DNA from: an uncultured Alphaproteobacteria bacterium
Lineage (GTDB): Bacteria > Pseudomonadota > Alphaproteobacteria > HIMB59 > GCA-002718135
DNA length: 47,403 nucleotides
Assembly (NCBI GenBank): GCA_902630465.1
Contig: CACOVJ010000006.1
Span: 1-47,403 of the forward strand
Direction: 5' to 3'
This document shows positions 1 to 8,999 of this stretch, one piece after another. The notes below the pieces were generated by a model that saw only the letters and a list, made by a program, of their open reading frames with translations, was not told where the DNA came from and made no database searches. Each line of letters begins with the position of its first letter. Position 1 is the stretch's first letter. A program made the position numbers and the translations under genes.

Positions 1-510
1 GACCCTTACTTTAACGAAGTGGGAAGAGTATATCCTAAGTACAAAAAGTATATAAAAATTTTAAATAAGGATTACTTAATAAATTCTAAGACATTGGTTC
101 ATGGAGATTTTAGTCCAAAAAATATACTGATTGGGAAAAATAAAATTGTATACCTAGATGCAGAATGTTGTAACTTTGGTGATCCAGTTTTTGACTTGGT
201 TTTTTTTTCAAATCATTTACTTATAAAAAGTATATTTATAAAAGATAAGTCAAAAGAATTTATTAAATCTTACATAACCTTTTATAAAGAATATTTAAAA
301 AATTTTAACGCTAAAAATTATAAACTATACATAAATAGAATTATTAAAATGACGCCAATAATGATGCTTGCAAGAATAGATGGAAAATCTCCAGTTGAGT
401 ATATTAAATCAGAGAAAATTAAAAATACTATTAGAAACAAATCATTCTTACTATTAGAAAGAAAAATTAATAGTTTAAATGATATTATAAGAATAATTAA
501 TGAAGGATAG
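1..510 (+). CDS. APH/choline-kinase-type phosphotransferase, 5'-truncated
   Basis: The reading frame is open to the first base of the window, so this is the C-terminal part (about 169 residues) of a longer protein. A GTG at base 19 is only an internal possibility. The kinase catalytic loop HGDFSPKN is encoded at bases 100-123, and an LDAE metal-binding segment followed by NFGDPVFDLVF comes shortly after. Both are typical of the APH superfamily, which includes aminoglycoside, choline, homoserine and methylthioribose kinases. The substrate cannot be read from the sequence. The gene ends inside the start of the enolase-like gene (11-base overlap), so the two are probably translationally coupled and may act in one pathway. 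Nothing indicates antibiotic resistance as such; a small-molecule kinase is more likely. Confidence 0.8.
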   Translation, partial: DPYFNEVGRVYPKYKKYIKILNKDYLINSKTLVHGDFSPKNILIGKNKIVYLDAECCNFGDPVFDLVFFSNHLLIKSIFIKDKSKEFIKSYITFYKEYLKNFNAKNYKLYINRIIKMTPIMMLARIDGKSPVEYIKSEKIKNTIRNKSFLLLERKINSLNDIIRIINEG

Positions 511-1738
511 TTCAATAATAGAAAAAGTTTTATCAAGAAGAGTATTTGACTCAAGAGGTAATCCTACGATAGAAACAGAGATTATTACAAAAAGTGGTGC
601 ACATGGTCGTGCAATTAGTCCATCTGGAGCCTCTACTGGTAAAAATGAGGCCGTAGAGATAAGAGACAAAGATGAAAAATTTAATGGTAAGGATGTTAAG
701 AGAGGATTAGAATTAATTGATAATGAAATAGCTAGTTTACTAATTGGTAGGTCATGTGAAGACCAAAAAGCTTTTGATAAAATACTTAATGATTATGATC
801 AAACAAGTCAAAAAAAGAGAATTGGCGGAAACGTAAGTACTTCACTCTCAATAGCAAATTATTTATGTGCTTCTAATTTAAATAAAACTCCTGCATTTAA
901 TTTTTACGCTAAATCAGAGAAGCTAAAAATACCTAAACCTGAAATTCAAATATTTGGTGGCGGTGCACATTCTGGAAATCAAAATAGTTTTCAGGATTTT
1001 CTAATATATCCAATAAATAATTTTTCTTACGAACAATTCTTAAATTCAGTTTATAATATCTTTAACTATACGAAAGAAAAGTTAAAAAAAAATAATAATT
1101 TTTTTGGATATTGTGATGAAGGTGGATTTTATCCAAATAAACTCGATCAGTTTGATATTTGTGAAATTATTAATGAAGGAATTTTAAAAAGCAATTTAAC
1201 CCCAAATCAAGATTTGGGTATTTCAATAGATGTAGCTGCATCCAATTTCTATAATCAAGGTAGCTATAATTTATATAATGATGAAATTGATAAAATAGAT
1301 TTAACTAATATTCTAAGTAAATTAATTAATGATTTCAATGTTAGTTTAATAGAGGACCCTTTTTATGAAGAGGATTTTAACTCTTTTGCATTATTAAAAA
1401 AACAACATACTAAGTCTGTAAAAATTATTGGTGATGATCTTGTTTGTTCAAATTATGATCTATTAAACAAGGCAATAAGAAATAAATGTGTTGATGGAAT
1501 AATAGTTAAAATAAATCAATGTGGAACAATTTCAGAAACTTTGGAAGTTATTCAATTAGCTAAAAAAAATAATATACAAACAATTCTCTCAGCAAGATCT
1601 GGGGACACTGAAGATGTTTTCCTAAGCCAGTTTGCCGTAGCATGGGATGTTGATATGATTAAAGTAGGATCTTTTTCAAGAAGCGAAAGAACATCAAAAT
1701 GGAATGAGTTAATCCGAATAGAAGAGAAATTAAAGTAA
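500..1738 (+). CDS. Divergent enolase (phosphopyruvate hydratase) homologue
   Basis: This 412-residue protein has the full enolase fold order: SGASTG loop (42-47), GGGAHSGN (153-160), DEGGF (206-210), metal ligands D244, E285 and D312/D313, catalytic-type lysine K337 (VKINQCGT), the SxRSG phosphate loop (364-368) and K388 in IKVGSFSRSER. Ordinary enolase makes phosphoenolpyruvate from 2-phosphoglycerate in the cytoplasm. Two conserved positions differ from what I know of the family: the QEF glutamate (E168 in yeast) is D166, and the histidine of SHRSG (H373 in yeast) is A365. The phosphate-binding residues are kept. It starts inside the upstream kinase gene with no clear Shine-Dalgarno. It may be the only enolase of the genome or a paralogue acting on a phosphorylated or phosphonate analogue; the changes favour the paralogue, but this is inference. 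Confidence 0.85.
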   Translation: MKDSSIIEKVLSRRVFDSRGNPTIETEIITKSGAHGRAISPSGASTGKNEAVEIRDKDEKFNGKDVKRGLELIDNEIASLLIGRSCEDQKAFDKILNDYDQTSQKKRIGGNVSTSLSIANYLCASNLNKTPAFNFYAKSEKLKIPKPEIQIFGGGAHSGNQNSFQDFLIYPINNFSYEQFLNSVYNIFNYTKEKLKKNNNFFGYCDEGGFYPNKLDQFDICEIINEGILKSNLTPNQDLGISIDVAASNFYNQGSYNLYNDEIDKIDLTNILSKLINDFNVSLIEDPFYEEDFNSFALLKKQHTKSVKIIGDDLVCSNYDLLNKAIRNKCVDGIIVKINQCGTISETLEVIQLAKKNNIQTILSARSGDTEDVFLSQFAVAWDVDMIKVGSFSRSERTSKWNELIRIEEKLK

Positions 1739-1746
1739 TAGAAAAA

Positions 1747-2217
1747 TTAAACTTCTAAAATCATATTTTCAGCACTACTTACTTTTAATTCACCAGATTG
1801 TTCAATTTTAAGAGATTTAATTTTATTATTTTCTATAAGCATTGCAAAACGAGAACTACGGTATCCCATAAAATTTTGTGATTTATCAGTTATTAAATCG
1901 TAATATCTTGAAATTTCAGCATTACCATCCGCAATGCCTTTAATTTGATGATCTTCAGAATAACTGATTAACCATGATTTCATAACATAATGATCATTTA
2001 CAGATAGACAATAAATATCCTCAATATGTTTCTTTTTAAATGATTCATAAAGTTTAATGTATCCTGGTAGATGTTTTTCAGAACAAGTAGGTGTAAATGC
2101 GCCAGGAACACCAAATAATAGTAGTCTTTTGTTGTTAAATTCATCTTTTAAAGATAATACATTTGAAACTCCATCTTTTATTATTGGCACTTTGATATCT
2201 GGTATATTTTTTATCAT
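1747..2217 (-). CDS. Peroxiredoxin, Prx5/redoxin type
   Basis: This 156-residue cytoplasmic protein is a thiol peroxidase that reduces hydrogen peroxide and organic hydroperoxides. The peroxidatic cysteine is C45 in the family motif PGAFTPTCSEKHLPGY, and the downstream SVND and NFMGYRSSRFA segments fit the atypical Prx5 group. Length is normal. The start codon overlaps the stop of the upstream DsbD/ScsB-like gene (ATGA), so both were probably made from one message, which suggests a shared thiol-redox role. It faces the enolase gene tail to tail with only 8 bases between, and I see no terminator hairpin there. Confidence 0.9.
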   Translation of the reverse strand: MIKNIPDIKVPIIKDGVSNVLSLKDEFNNKRLLLFGVPGAFTPTCSEKHLPGYIKLYESFKKKHIEDIYCLSVNDHYVMKSWLISYSEDHQIKGIADGNAEISRYYDLITDKSQNFMGYRSSRFAMLIENNKIKSLKIEQSGELKVSSAENMILEV

Positions 2218-4272
2218 TTCATTTTTTCTATTGAGTTTAGAATTTGTTTTTTAGATAATATTTCTGATAAAAGTATGCCCTCAGGGTATTTAGATGAAAA
2301 GAATGCATTCAATGGAATTCCAAATCTATTATACCTTTTTAAGAAAGTATCAATTTCTTTACTTGGTTTTGTCCAATCAGCTCTAACTAAAACAATATTA
2401 TTTTTCATAAATGCTTCTTTAATTTTTTTTGACTGTAGAACATTTATTTTATTAAATTGACACGTTGCACACCAGTCTGCTGTTATATCAATGAAAACAA
2501 CTTGGTCATTTTCAACAAGATTTTTAATATCTGTATCTAAAAAGTTTATCCAACTTTCATCATTTTTTATCATATTTTCTGATTTGATAAAATTTAAAAA
2601 TGGGATTGAAAATAAAGTAACTACAGACAAAACTGTTATTGTATTTTTAAAAAAGTTAATCTTGACAGATACAGTAATTAAAAAAACAATTATTAAAAAT
2701 ATTAGTACGAAATATAAATTGTAAAAATTTAATAAGATATTTATTATCCAAAATATTGTACCTATAAGTAATATTGATAAAAGATATTTAGTATAAATCA
2801 TCCATTTACCTGGCTTAGGTAAGAAAAATACCAATCTAGGGAATAGAACTACAACCAAATATGGAAGACTCATACCAAATCCCATAAAAATAAAAATTAA
2901 GAATAATGTTAATGAATTTTGTGTAAATGCTGCAGTTATAGCAGTACCTATGAAAGGTGCAGAGCAAGGAGTAGCCAAGAGTGTTGCAAAAAAAACCATT
3001 AAAAAAATTTTTAGCAAAAAAACTATTTCCTTGATTAAATATGTTTGATCTTTTTATTGAAGATGGCAGATTAATTTCAAATAATCCAAGTGTATTTAAC
3101 GAAAATACAGTTAACACTAATAAAATGAATATTAGGAAGTGTGGTTCTTGAAACTGCATGCCCCATGACACTGAAAAATTAAGTTGTTTTAGGATGAGAA
3201 AGAATGAAGCTAACAATAAAAATGAAGACAATATACCTAATGATGTATAAATAAAACTTAACCTAATAGACGAATATTTATTGTTTAAAACGGACATCAA
3301 TTTTATTGATAAAACAGGAAAGACACATGGCATTAGATTTAATATAAAACCACCTAACAAAGATATAAGTAAAATATATATTAATTGATCTTTAATAAAT
3401 ATATTTGATATTGAATCTTCTAAAGTTATGTTTTTTGAAAATTTGTAATTGTGATTTTGATCATTAATTATAACTTCTATTGGGAAATTTTTTTCGCTAA
3501 ACTGTTTTTTATTAAAATTAAATTTTGAGCTTATATTTTTTAAGTTAAAAGAAAGTTCATTAATTGGATTATATACCGGCAAACCAAATGGTGTGTGAAT
3601 ATAAATATTGGTATTTACAAAATTCTTTTGTGAGTCAGCAATAATATTTATTTCTACTGTTTGTGCACTCTGTGTTGCATAAACTTTAACTTCATTAAGT
3701 GCACTTAAATTTATATCAGTTAAAGGGATATTGGATTTGGCTTTTTCAATATCGTATAAAAAATTTGTGTATTCTCCAATTCCTGGAGGAATTTCTAAAT
3801 ATAAATTGGCATTACCTGGGATACAAATATGTTTACAAACTAAATAATTCGTGTTTAAATTAATTTTTGTCATTTTATTTATATCAAGCAACTTAATTTC
3901 CATGGGAAAAATTACACTTTCCAAATATCCAATTGAGTCTAATCCAAGAATTTGAAATTGAGTAGGTGTTGGCCATTCAATATTAATTTGACTTATGTTT
4001 TCTGAATTATTCCACACTAGGTTTTGAGGAAAACCACCTCCTCCAGGAGACTTCCAATAAGTTTTCCAACCAGGTTCTAGTTCATATTCTAAACCTATTA
4101 ATATTGTGTCAAGATTATCTGTATTTGTTTTTGATGAAATTAATCTAACTTTTGACTTGTCGTTTATAACCCAATCACTTGATAAAGCGAATATATGAGT
4201 GCTATAAAATGACACACAAGTCATAAGTACAGAAAATAGTACAAATTTAATATTTTTTTTTATCTTGTTCAT
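2214..4272 (-). pseudogene. DsbD/ScsB-type thiol:disulfide interchange protein, frameshifted
   Basis: The product would carry electrons across the inner membrane to periplasmic thiol proteins. Reading from 4272, there is a signal peptide (residues 1 to about 29), a periplasmic N-terminal domain with a CKHIC motif, then membrane helices beginning with LMPCVFPVL. After ...FFAKNFFNG the frame is lost. The missing part (ATLLATPCSAPF, more helices, and a C-terminal thioredoxin domain with WCATC) continues in the next frame from about 2986 to 2214. Removing one base from the run of eight T (minus strand; A at 2988-2995) restores a continuous protein of about 685 residues, normal for the family. It could be a sequencing or assembly error, a real mutation, phase variation, or a slippage site. 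Both halves keep their motifs, so decay is recent or only apparent. Confidence 0.85.
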
Positions 4273-5210: not shown

Positions 5211-6467
5211 TTAATCACGTATAGAATAAGCTATTACCCCTACTTCAGCTTTATCAGTGCCAAGCTTCTCAGCTTCTTCACTAATCCGAAGTCCCATAGT
5301 GCTTTTTATTATATAAATAACGATGTAAGAAAATATGAATACAAATAAACATATTGAAATTACTCCTAATAGTTGTATTACGTATGAAGCATCAGGATTT
5401 GTAAAAGGAACTACTAATGTTCCCCAAATTCCTGCAAACATGTGAACGGGAATTGCTCCTACAACATCATCAAGTTTTAGTGAATTAAGGAGTTGAGTTC
5501 CATAATACATAATTATTCCACCAATGGCCCCAATAAAGATTGCTAAAAGAGGTGATGGCATTAAAGGCTCTGCAGTAATAGATACTAATCCTGCTAATGC
5601 TCCATTAAGCATCATTACTATGTCAGTTTTACCACCAATAACTCTTGTTATGATTGCGCCTGCCATACATCCGCCACAAGCAGCTAATTGTGTATTCATA
5701 AAGATTTGAGACATAGCAGTTGCGTCTTCATATGAGCCTAATGCTAATTGTGATCCACCATTAAAACCATACCAGCCCATCCACAAAATAAATGTTCCCA
5801 ACGTGACGAGGGGAATTGAAGATGGTGCAAATGGTGCCATGTTTGCTGGTTCACCAGATTCAGTAAATCTACCTAATCTTGGACCTAACAAAATAACACC
5901 TGCTAATGTAGAACCAGCAAAATCAGAAAAGCCAAGAGCATCAAGCCAACCTCCGCCCCATTCCCATCCCATTTGTATAGGATAGATAAAGCCACCTAAT
6001 ATTGCAGCAAAAACAAAAAATGGCCAAATCTTAATTCTTTCAGCAACTGCTCCAGATACAATTGATACTGTTGCACATACAAATAAAGCTTGAAAAAACC
6101 AATCTGAAGCGTCAGAATATCCTGTATCCATAGAAGTATTGTCAGTCCACAAAGAAGGAAATCCTAAAATACCACCTTCTTCAACTCCATAACCTAAATT
6201 GTAGCCAAATAAATAAAAAACAATTGAAACTATAGCAAACTTTCCAATATTTTTAGCAGCAATTGTTGAGACACTCCTAGTGGTTACAAGACCTGATTCT
6301 AAAAATAAAAATCCGGCAGCCATCCACATGACTAAAAAGCCACAAACTAGAAATGAAAAAGTATTTAAAATATATGCAACTTCAGCATCAACTTCAGCTC
6401 GTGCATATGAACTAAATAGTAAAAAACATGATACTATTCCAATTAAATAAAGAGATTTTTTAAACAT
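5211..6467 (-). CDS. amt: Ammonium transporter (Amt/MEP/Rh), lacking the first pore histidine segment
   Basis: This inner-membrane channel for ammonium/ammonia is 418 residues long from the ATG at 6467. That start is chosen because GGAGG lies 4 bases upstream and a signal peptide follows (MFKKSLYLIGIVSC...ARA); an upstream in-frame start at 6497 has no such support. Family landmarks are clear: WMAAGFLFLESGLVTTRS, FQALFVCATVSIVSGAVAER, WMGWYGFNGGSQLALG, and DDVVGAIPVHMFAGIWGT with the second pore histidine H342. In the family, a DFAGST segment is followed by a conserved (V)VH and a small-residue stretch before LGxR. Here DFAGST runs straight into LAGVILLGPR at about residue 187, so about 10 residues, including the first pore histidine, appear to be missing in frame. 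It is preceded by two glutamine riboswitch aptamers, which fits nitrogen regulation. Confidence 0.9.
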   Translation of the reverse strand: MFKKSLYLIGIVSCFLLFSSYARAEVDAEVAYILNTFSFLVCGFLVMWMAAGFLFLESGLVTTRSVSTIAAKNIGKFAIVSIVFYLFGYNLGYGVEEGGILGFPSLWTDNTSMDTGYSDASDWFFQALFVCATVSIVSGAVAERIKIWPFFVFAAILGGFIYPIQMGWEWGGGWLDALGFSDFAGSTLAGVILLGPRLGRFTESGEPANMAPFAPSSIPLVTLGTFILWMGWYGFNGGSQLALGSYEDATAMSQIFMNTQLAACGGCMAGAIITRVIGGKTDIVMMLNGALAGLVSITAEPLMPSPLLAIFIGAIGGIIMYYGTQLLNSLKLDDVVGAIPVHMFAGIWGTLVVPFTNPDASYVIQLLGVISICLFVFIFSYIVIYIIKSTMGLRISEEAEKLGTDKAEVGVIAYSIRD

Positions 6468-6471
6468 TAAT

Positions 6472-6476
6472 CCTCC
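6472..6476 (-). promoter_or_regulatory. Shine-Dalgarno GGAGG of amt
   Basis: GGAGG sits 4 bases before the ATG at 6467 and decides the start of amt against the in-frame upstream start at 6497. It is also the element a translation-controlling riboswitch would need to mask. Confidence 0.75.
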
Positions 6477-6492
6477 ACTATAAATTTCACAG

Positions 6493-6519
6493 AACACAGC
6501 TCACTCCGAGCAGTGTGTT
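6493..6519 (-). promoter_or_regulatory. Hairpin between the riboswitch and the amt start (expression platform candidate)
   Basis: AACACA-CT-GCTC can pair with GAGC-TGTGTT, giving about ten base pairs with a two-base bulge and a small loop. No T tract follows, so it is not a normal intrinsic terminator. It lies between aptamer 2 and the amt ribosome binding site and could be part of the switching structure. The loop contains GGAG, which resembles a ribosome binding site but has no start codon at the right distance. Confidence 0.45.
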
Positions 6520-6785: not shown

Positions 6786-7937
6786 CTATTTGACTGTTGA
6801 TAAATCTGTCCATGCAGAATTATTATTACTCGAAACTACAGTAGCCTTAATGAATTTCATAATGTGCAATCCGTCATTAACATTAGGTAGAATTTTAATT
6901 AAATCAGATTTATTTTCTTTGTTTAGAATAACATCTGCTGCATCTGAATAGATTTGTGCAAAAGCTTCTAGATATCCCTCTGGATGACCAGCTGGCACTC
7001 TTTCGAATGAAAATGAACCATGTTGTTTTAATGATCCTCCTCTCGTTATTATCTGGTTCGGCTTTCCAAGTTTACTAAATGTAGCGTAATTTGGATTCTC
7101 TTGTGACCAATGAAGTGCTCCTTTATCACCATACATTGATAATCTAAAATTATTTTCTTCACCTGTTGCAACCTGTGATATTGATAAGTTTCCTTTTACC
7201 TTATTTGACATCCTTATCATAATTGAGGCATCATCCTCAAGTTTTCTTCCATCAACAAAAGTTGTTAAGTCTGCAGCTACAGACATTAGTTTTTCTCCGA
7301 TAATAAATTCAATTAAATGCATTGTATGACTGCCAATATCTCCTACAGCACCGGCAACACCGCTTCTTTTAGGATCTGTTCTCCACTCTGCTTGTTTATT
7401 TTCACCTGTTTCTTCTTCTTTTGAGCCTAACCATCCCTGAAGATATGAACCTTTAACCATTCTTATTTTTCCAAGTTCACCGTTTTTAATTAATGAACGC
7501 ATTTCTCTTATAACTGGATAGCCAGAGTAATTGTGTGTCAGAAAAAAGTGTGCTTTAGATTTAGTAACTGTATCAGATAATTTATAAGCATCCTCCATTG
7601 TTGAAGTCATAGGTTTATCGCAAATAACATGTATATTTTTATTTAAAAATTCAATTGCAGGTGCTGCATGCATATGATTTGGAGTTACAATTGAAACTAC
7701 ATCTATTCCATCTTTTCTTTGTGATTCTTTTTCAGCCATTGTTTTAAAATCAGGATAACTTCTTGATGGGTCTAATCCAATTTCCTCGGCTGATTTTGTA
7801 GCTTTTTCTGGAGTTGAAGATAAACATCCAGCGACAAATTCATATTTATCATCCATCCTTGCACATAATCTATGCACTGCACCTATAAAAGCACCTTGCC
7901 CACCACCAATCATTCCAAGTTTAAGTTTTTTATTCAT
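6786..7937 (-). CDS. Gfo/Idh/MocA family NAD(P)-dependent dehydrogenase
   Basis: This 383-residue cytoplasmic oxidoreductase has an N-terminal Rossmann domain with the glycine motif GMIGGGQGAFIGAVHR, the CDKPM segment carrying the usual catalytic lysine, and a GDIGSHTMHL motif with the conserved aspartate and histidine of the C-terminal domain. Family members oxidise or reduce hydroxyl groups of sugars and inositols, and the exact substrate cannot be told. It follows the TIM-barrel isomerase by 9 bases on the same strand, so the two form a two-gene operon that probably handles one sugar or cyclitol by a dehydrogenase-isomerase route. The terminator at 6734-6752 ends it. Confidence 0.9.
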   Translation of the reverse strand: MNKKLKLGMIGGGQGAFIGAVHRLCARMDDKYEFVAGCLSSTPEKATKSAEEIGLDPSRSYPDFKTMAEKESQRKDGIDVVSIVTPNHMHAAPAIEFLNKNIHVICDKPMTSTMEDAYKLSDTVTKSKAHFFLTHNYSGYPVIREMRSLIKNGELGKIRMVKGSYLQGWLGSKEEETGENKQAEWRTDPKRSGVAGAVGDIGSHTMHLIEFIIGEKLMSVAADLTTFVDGRKLEDDASIMIRMSNKVKGNLSISQVATGEENNFRLSMYGDKGALHWSQENPNYATFSKLGKPNQIITRGGSLKQHGSFSFERVPAGHPEGYLEAFAQIYSDAADVILNKENKSDLIKILPNVNDGLHIMKFIKATVVSSNNNSAWTDLSTVK

Positions 7938-7946
7938 TTTAAAATT

Positions 7947-8999
7947 TTATATACCTAAAAGTTTTTTATTAGTCTGTTGATCCATACGGGAGTCTGCAAA
8001 ATCATCAAAAGCTTTTTCAGTGACATCAATTATGTGATCACTAATAAATTTTGCACCTTCCTCTGCTCCCTGTTGAGGACTTTTAATACAACATTCCCAT
8101 TCAAGCACCGCCCATCCATTGAAATCATATTGAGATAACTTAGAAAAAATTGACTTGAAATCTACCTGACCATCCCCTAAGGATCTAAATCTTCCAGCTC
8201 TATCTATCCAAGATTGGAAACCTCCGTAAACTCCCTGCCTACCTGTTGGGTTTAATTCAGCATCCTTAACATGAAACATTTTCAATTTTTCATGATAAAT
8301 ATCAATATGATCAAGATAATTTAAATGCTGAAGCACAAAATGACTTGGATCATAAAGCATATTACATCTTGGATGATTTTTTACTTTTTCTAAAAACATT
8401 TCAAAAGAAATTCCATCATGCAAATCTTCACCAGGATGAATTTCATAGCATAAATTTACACCTGATTGATCGAAAGCATTTAGAATTGGTAACCAACGAT
8501 TTGCAAGCTCATTAAATGCTTCTTCAACTAAACCTGATGGTCGTTGAGGCCATGGATACATATAAGGCCAAGCTAGTGCTCCAGAAAATGTGGCATGTTC
8601 TGTAAGACCTAAGTTTTTAGATGCTTTTGCAGCCATCATTAATTGATTTATTGCCCAATCTTTTCTTTTGGATGGATTACCTCTAACACTTTCATCTGCA
8701 AATCCATCAAATGGAATATCGTATGCAGGATGAACTGCTACTAGTTGTCCTTGGAGATGAGTTGATAATTCTGTAAGCTCAATTTTATTTTTGTCCAAAA
8801 TACCTTTTATTTCATCACAATAGCTTTTGCTTTCAGATGCTTTAGATAAATCAATAAGACGTTTATCCCATGAAGGTATCTGCACTCCTTTATAACCTAA
8901 ACTAGAAGCCCATTTAGAAATACCATCTAATGAATTAAATGGATTTTCATCTCCAACAAATTGAGCAAGAAATATAGCAGGTCCTTTGATTTTTTTCAT
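7947..8999 (-). CDS. Sugar phosphate isomerase/epimerase family (AP endonuclease 2-like TIM barrel)
   Basis: The 350-residue protein has the metal-site pattern of xylose-isomerase-like TIM barrels: NLCYEIHPGED (glutamate), NMLYDPSHF (aspartate and histidine), MFHVKDAEL (histidine and aspartate) and VLEWECC near the C-terminus (glutamate). Relatives include IolE, IolI, MocC and hydroxypyruvate isomerases, so a dehydratase or epimerase role on a keto-sugar or keto-inositol is possible. No signal peptide is seen. It is the first gene of the pair with the downstream dehydrogenase, and it lies far from the larger cyclitol region at 37700-47403. Confidence 0.85.
   Translation of the reverse strand: MKKIKGPAIFLAQFVGDENPFNSLDGISKWASSLGYKGVQIPSWDKRLIDLSKASESKSYCDEIKGILDKNKIELTELSTHLQGQLVAVHPAYDIPFDGFADESVRGNPSKRKDWAINQLMMAAKASKNLGLTEHATFSGALAWPYMYPWPQRPSGLVEEAFNELANRWLPILNAFDQSGVNLCYEIHPGEDLHDGISFEMFLEKVKNHPRCNMLYDPSHFVLQHLNYLDHIDIYHEKLKMFHVKDAELNPTGRQGVYGGFQSWIDRAGRFRSLGDGQVDFKSIFSKLSQYDFNGWAVLEWECCIKSPQQGAEEGAKFISDHIIDVTEKAFDDFADSRMDQQTNKKLLGI

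Follow-up and report, generated by a model that had tools for sequence, protein, structure and literature searches.

The first two genes of the DNA stretch analysed here (the window; 47,403 nucleotides from an uncultured alphaproteobacterium) belong to a widely conserved two-gene module, in which an APH-type phosphotransferase is paired with a distinct subfamily of enolases that is masked by current annotation. We propose that the two proteins carry out consecutive steps of a catabolic module that would convert a glycerate-type acid to phosphoenolpyruvate (PEP) or a close analogue, a reading that we hold with about as much confidence as doubt. As a general class of mechanism, it is likely that a 2-hydroxyl is phosphorylated and that beta-elimination then gives an enol phosphate. 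Enolase is regarded as among the most invariant of metabolic enzymes, and the subfamily described here has two catalytic residues altered in every member; its proteins are annotated as phosphopyruvate hydratase even though they are tied to a dedicated kinase. If the two-step chemistry is right, the module would constitute a new way of feeding hydroxy acids into PEP. A literature search, made mostly outside subscription journals, yielded no paper on this kinase-enolase pair.

An APH-type kinase gene overlaps an enolase gene

The enolase homologue (positions 500 to 1738, forward strand, 412 amino acids) starts at an ATG that lies inside the final codons of the phosphotransferase gene (positions 1 to 510, forward strand), giving a same-strand overlap of 11 bases (positions 500 to 510). 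This arrangement, reported in the initial annotation, is confirmed by the open reading frame coordinates, by matches to Pfam and NCBIfam and by intact relatives (L032, L105 and L106) in which an identical 11-bp overlap is found. The window kinase fragment matches Pfam APH at 3e-06, and the downstream frame matches Enolase_N (5.5e-38) and Enolase_C (6.4e-61) and scores 386.6 bits with the TIGR01060 eno model (cut-off 300).

Because base 1 of the window is also the first base of its contig (G000:C6), the kinase reading frame is open at its 5' end, and the window holds only the C-terminal 169 amino acids of this APH/fructosamine-kinase-like protein. Reading upstream of base 1, as had been recommended, located the start of the kinase gene and an RbsBAC transporter on contig C13 of the same genome. 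The missing N-terminus (60 amino acids) is encoded at G000:C13:1-180 on the minus strand, directly behind rbsC, and with intact orthologues of 323 amino acids as a guide, approximately 93 kinase residues fall in the gap between contigs C6 and C13.

Assignment of the kinase to the APH-type phosphotransferases is supported by PF01636 (34.5 bits), with additional matches to PF03881 and PF02958. The HxD and Asp-x-Glu motifs are present: HGDxSPKN and LDxE are conserved in the family alignment, with HGDFSPKN and LDAEC as the catalytic motifs. The window kinase is approximately 26-31% identical to paired kinases from outside its genus. Its nearest solved and curated relatives are methylthioribose kinases (2olc and TIGR01767). 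A function as methylthioribose kinase in methionine salvage was rejected, given a TIGR01767 score of 54.4 bits against a cut-off of 275 and no methionine-salvage genes seen among the neighbours. No match in Pfam was obtained to either class of glycerate kinase (class I, PF02595; class II or MOFRL, PF05161). These glycerate 2-kinases (PMC2063504) resemble the proposed system in phosphorylating a 2-hydroxyl to feed an enolase, but they are unrelated in sequence family to the APH/fructosamine kinase-like type found here, which co-occurs with MOFRL kinases and does not replace them.

The pair recurs across lineages

A profile of the kinase matched 39 of 385 alphaproteobacterial genomes, distributed over many families, and most of the kinase loci that were read have an enolase homologue next door. 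Further relatives reside on plasmids of Rhizobium, Sinorhizobium, Azospirillum, Cupriavidus, Paraburkholderia, Methylobacterium, Paracoccus, Roseibium, Sphingobium and Rhodococcus, and of the haloarchaea Haladaptatus and Halomarina. The pair is rare in the window's own genus: it was seen in 6 of 110 genomes sampled from the family, a sample that includes many incomplete genomes.

Our census comprises 58 kinase loci that were found through the kinase, one genome being counted twice (L032 and L239). The enolase gene is adjacent and on the same strand at 46 of these loci, lies in the same stretch at 7 and is not nearby at 5. Such frequent adjacency, together with preservation of the 11-base overlap in the intact relatives, indicates that the overlap is not a product of chance, and we infer that it couples translation of the two genes. 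Among the five unpaired loci is that of genome G428, in which the kinase and the variant enolase are both present (L154 and L241) on different contigs, and thus the pair can be split.

The reverse, enolase-first comparison matters because the census loci were found through the kinase. When the 385 genomes were searched with a profile of the variant enolase, 32 matches scored at least 591 bits and all others listed scored 574 bits or less. Lower scores were obtained for the window's own copy and for another subclade that is more divergent, and neither is included among the 32. All 32 of the genomes are kinase-positive. Pairwise distances of kinases and enolases are also correlated (r = 0.80 over 52 loci; 0 of 2000 permutations). 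The initial annotation had named recurrence of the two gene types together as one supporting result, and such co-occurrence was observed in both directions, with a kinase neighbour that is conserved.

In a tree built without the two signature columns described below, a single clade (SH-aLRT 99), apart from the canonical enolases, unites the 49 paired enolases of genera other than the window's, and the four enolases of the window's group sit alone on a very long, AT-rich branch. When a thinned set was put to an AU test, a single clade for all paired enolases was not rejected (p 0.73), and the constrained tree scored higher. The paired enolases probably had a single origin and then spread laterally.

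Two active-site residues are altered in every paired enolase

To define the variant, 53 aligned paired enolases were compared with 48 canonical enolases, taken both from those genomes and from other bacteria and from archaea (yeast numbering is used below). Two columns are completely fixed in each group yet different between them. The Glu168 position is Asp in 53 of 53 paired enolases and Glu in 48 of 48 canonical enolases (Asp166 in the window; codon at 995 to 997, forward strand), and the His373 position is likewise Ala in all 53 and His in all 48 (Ala365; 1592 to 1594, forward strand). E168 and E209 have been named as PEP-site residues (PMC6585157). At four further columns (window residues 149, 153, 205 and 389) the two groups have no residue in common; three of these (153, 205 and 389) border on conserved catalytic motifs or stand at most a few residues away from one, and residue 149 lies just upstream.

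The remainder of the catalytic core is retained. On the forward strand of the window, the three Mg2+ ligands span positions 1229 to 1435 (Asp244, 1229-1231; Glu285, 1352-1354; Asp312, 1433-1435) and are invariant in all sequences, as is the general base Lys345 (Lys337; 1508 to 1510). The general acid Glu211 (Glu207; 1118 to 1120) is Glu in all paired and canonical enolases, and the Lys396 equivalent (Lys388; 1661 to 1663) is followed by Val389, where canonical enolases mostly have Thr. Equivalents of the metal ligands, both lysines, Glu211, His159, Arg374 and Ser375 are invariant among the paired enolases. The residues that define membership in the enolase family are accordingly present at the metal ligands, the lysines, Glu211 and Arg374/Ser375, and absent at Glu168 and His373. 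Although the variant gives a full-length, two-domain match to canonical enolase (PF03952 and PF00113, with TIGR01060 above its curated cut-off), it departs from the canonical form in its motifs (NGG to GGG or SGG; GDEGG to (A/C/S)DEGG; KTG to K(V/I)G), in the Glu168-to-Asp and His373-to-Ala changes of every member, and in its coupling to a kinase.

In enolase, Glu168, Glu211 and His373 surround the C3 hydroxyl of 2-phosphoglycerate. The distribution of retained and altered residues thus implies that the proton-abstraction side of the active site has been kept and the leaving-group side changed, and the two invariant changes make a non-canonical substrate likely. Alternatively, the alteration of two residues at the leaving-group site might reflect loss of catalysis, with the variant regulating the kinase or serving as its scaffold. 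We consider this very unlikely, since the metal ligands, both lysines and the other catalytic residues listed above persist in all paired copies, which is unexpected for an inactive protein.

The nearest solved structures to a profile of the window's group are annotated as enolase, and the two that were aligned have the canonical residues at the Glu168 and His373 sites. An AlphaFold model of the window enolase, computed from four sequences, has a pLDDT of 73.8, with its active-site loops at low confidence. The subfamily allows a direct test of how Glu168 and His373 contribute to enolase specificity, and its QDF and SARSG motifs would, if the two-step chemistry holds, serve as a marker to tell true eno genes from the variant.

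Most genomes with the pair also carry a canonical eno

A second, canonical eno had been predicted to occur elsewhere in the window's genome, and one was found on contig C7, 36% identical to the paired enolase. Most of the 40 kinase-bearing genomes have exactly two eno genes, and a separate canonical copy accompanies the variant in nearly all genomes; G137, G450 and G470 are the only kinase-positive genomes without a second eno. TIGR01060 scores separate the two forms, at 579-686 bits for canonical enolases of the kinase-bearing genomes and 370-487 bits for paired ones, except for a truncated copy in G422 (272 bits).

These data bear on whether the pair simply salvages D-glycerate, with the kinase as one more kind of D-glycerate 2-kinase, and with an enolase that performs the ordinary conversion of 2-phospho-D-glycerate to PEP, both co-regulated for high flux. 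A D-2-hydroxyacid dehydrogenase resembling hydroxypyruvate reductase adjoins the pair at 25 of the 58 kinase loci (best solved match, glycerate dehydrogenase 2cuk), and a class V aminotransferase at L147 and a PEP carboxylase in Rhizobium operons resemble serine-cycle logic. However, a MOFRL-type D-glycerate 2-kinase is encoded in 30 of 37 pair-bearing genomes and 26 of 43 others (class I, 1 of 80), and the pair is therefore not a replacement for the D-glycerate route. A simple stand-in for missing D-glycerate kinases was rejected because MOFRL kinases are at least as frequent where the pair is present. With a D-glycerate 2-kinase and a normal enolase already available in most pair genomes, neither gene of the pair would be needed for plain D-glycerate use, which looks redundant, and the universal changes at Glu168 and His373 are unexpected for the canonical reaction. 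The phosphorylated acid is thus best read as something other than 2-phospho-D-glycerate, and we consider plain D-glycerate salvage unlikely overall. In the window's genus, neither MOFRL nor class I glycerate kinases were found, and there the pair could serve plain D-glycerate for that reason.

An independent kinase-enolase pairing was noted at G185:C16:25487-28107, where a third enolase (506 bits) adjoins a MOFRL-type glycerate 2-kinase.

Neighbourhoods are catabolic

On contig C13, genes for an RbsC permease, an RbsA ATPase and an RbsB binding protein precede the kinase start, and intact copies from congeners have the order RbsB-RbsA-RbsC-kinase-enolase, all in one direction. An RbsB-type binding protein is encoded at L108:1971-2951. 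Divergent from the transporter are genes for a PanB-like protein, a desaturase-like oxygenase, an SMP-30 lactonase, an SDR and two MR/MLE dehydratases, the second of which scores above the galactonate dehydratase cut-off, along with a DHDPS-type aldolase and an IlvD-type dehydratase that were named from sequence by eye. The divergent cluster is a sugar or sugar-acid catabolic region, and in this lineage the pair closes an RbsBAC sugar-transport operon that adjoins a sugar-acid degradation cluster. Rhizopine (moc) catabolism is not supported for this operon (rhizopine-binding protein model NF052284, 82 bits against a cut-off of 420). The PanB-like protein beside the transporter (L108:3101-3928; L032:2640-3467) is possibly an aldolase-like paralogue of the sugar-acid cluster; the segments that usually hold the metal ligands in PanB appear to be replaced.

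The initial annotation had offered two interpretations, of which a hydroxy-acid kinase followed by enolase-like dehydration is still the best reading. The other, a phosphonate or phosphonolipid cluster cut off at the window edge, has been largely refuted. Carboxyphosphonoenolpyruvate synthase of phosphinothricin biosynthesis is a known enolase homologue with a proposed dehydration of a 2-O-substituted glycerate, and the variant might act likewise; the PanB-like neighbour belongs to the PEP mutase fold superfamily. However, that neighbour matches only Pantoate_transf in Pfam, and the pair loci differ from the phosphinothricin pathway in lacking pepM. A nearby pepM had been suggested as support; neither the window's genome nor its congeners, all of them incomplete genomes, yielded a pepM, and in the 3 of 40 pair-bearing genomes where pepM exceeds the family cut-off it is on a contig other than that of the kinase locus. 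The neighbourhoods are instead catabolic, with transporters and sugar-acid or aromatic clusters, and a phosphonate function is accordingly barely credible.

In other lineages, an FAH hydrolase lies directly 3' of the enolase at 8 loci (best match, L-2,4-diketo-3-deoxyrhamnonate hydrolase 8gsr). In Paracoccus, Roseibium and others, genes for both an SDR and an FAH hydrolase come after the pair, and LacI-kinase-enolase-FAH-SDR is a recurrent order. Hydrolases of this FAH type would cleave hexonate-derived diketo acids to pyruvate and a 2-hydroxy acid, which for the hexonate version would be glycerate. The non-phosphorylating pathways for L-rhamnose and L-fucose likewise use an SDR and a 2,4-diketo-3-deoxy-aldonate hydrolase, but they end in lactate and are not known to use a kinase or an enolase. 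The pair instead hints at a final product that bears a 3-hydroxyl, for example glycerate.

Elsewhere, L153 has the order TRAP transporter-kinase-enolase-dehydrogenase-LacI, and TRAP and Tct acid transporters occur in some pair operons. In Halomarina, a galactonate dehydratase, a DHDPS-type aldolase and MR/MLE dehydratases lie near the pair, as in the window's group. Rhizobium operons show PEP carboxylase-dehydrogenase-kinase, and a pyruvate kinase gene lies near L159. Clusters in Rhizobium, Cupriavidus and Sphingobium look aromatic, with an HpaD-like dioxygenase.

Two sets of plasmid loci have other surroundings. At L173, L179 and L180 (haloarchaeal plasmids), the pair is flanked by genes for a ketol-acid reductoisomerase homologue, several MR/MLE proteins, cupins and TCP-1 chaperonins. 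On an Enterobacter chuandaensis plasmid (L171:6214-8939), a kinase homologue accompanies a more degenerate enolase paralogue (DEGG to EKGG; SHRSG to AGRSI) in an apparent biosynthetic cluster with a U32 peptidase, an aminotransferase, an iron redox enzyme and an MFS transporter.

Proposed reactions and candidate substrates

We infer both reactions, the substrate and the product as follows. Using ATP, the kinase would phosphorylate the 2-hydroxyl of a small 2,3-dihydroxy acid, most likely a glycerate, arising from sugar-acid or related catabolism. In the variant enolase, the Lys345 equivalent would then take the C2 proton and the Glu211 equivalent would help expel the C3 hydroxyl, so that PEP, or a compound close to it, is formed and passes into central metabolism. 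The changes at Glu168 and His373, beside the leaving-group site, would suit the enzyme to a substrate outside the reach of ordinary enolase, for which the candidates are 2-phospho-L-glycerate or a C3-substituted 2-phospho acid. Glycerate-type acids feeding PEP are compatible with most neighbourhoods. On the other side, neighbourhoods vary by lineage and one substrate cannot account for all of them; the substrate of the window's pair could differ from that of other pairs because of its very long branch.

For the first candidate, an APH-fold L-glycerate 2-kinase would form 2-phospho-L-glycerate and an enolase of reversed stereospecificity would convert it to PEP. If true, this would be a new entry into central metabolism common to bacteria and haloarchaea and masked as 'eno', but we regard it as doubtful. 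The L-enantiomer would have its proton facing Glu211, and the base and acid roles would therefore have to be swapped. Furthermore, D-2-hydroxyacid dehydrogenases normally yield D-acids, and D-glycerate fits such neighbours better than L-glycerate does. Taken together, the retained lysine and the dehydrogenase neighbours point rather to a D-configured, C3-substituted acid. The class II glycerate kinase of T. tenax acts only weakly on L-glycerate (30%; PMC2063504). Both enantiomers of 2-phosphoglycerate are commercially available (PMC13228409).

In the case of the second candidate, the substrate might carry an extra C3 group or another leaving group, as in a C4 2,3-dihydroxy acid or 3-sulfolactate, and the product would be a PEP analogue or PEP plus the released group. 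Both invariant changes leave a smaller side chain close to the C3 leaving group, the acid transporters of some operons are consistent with such a substrate, and the D-2-hydroxyacid dehydrogenase would suit a 2R acid. However, no sulfonate- or C4-specific genes were seen, and the nearby PEP carboxylase and pyruvate kinase suggest ordinary PEP. The association with PEP carboxylase comes from a single group of related Rhizobium operons. Our estimate is that a C3-substituted substrate is tentative and rather unlikely. Sulfolactate itself was rejected, with neither a gene nor a paper found in support.

Other features of the window

Approximately 5 kb from the enolase, a Gfo/Idh/MocA-type oxidoreductase gene and a sugar isomerase/epimerase-like gene (positions 6786-8999, minus strand) form a further sugar or polyol catabolic unit. 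An AmtB-type ammonium transporter gene (5211-6497, minus strand) lacks ten residues, VHACGGSAAL, that are present in L105 and L106; the missing segment holds a conserved histidine, and the in-frame deletion is either real or an assembly effect. A DsbD-like gene (2214-4272, minus strand) is divided into two overlapping frames, with the shift at approximately 2839-3011 beside a run of A. Because the gene is a single open reading frame in L032, L105 and L106, this split is probably a frameshift or a sequencing error.
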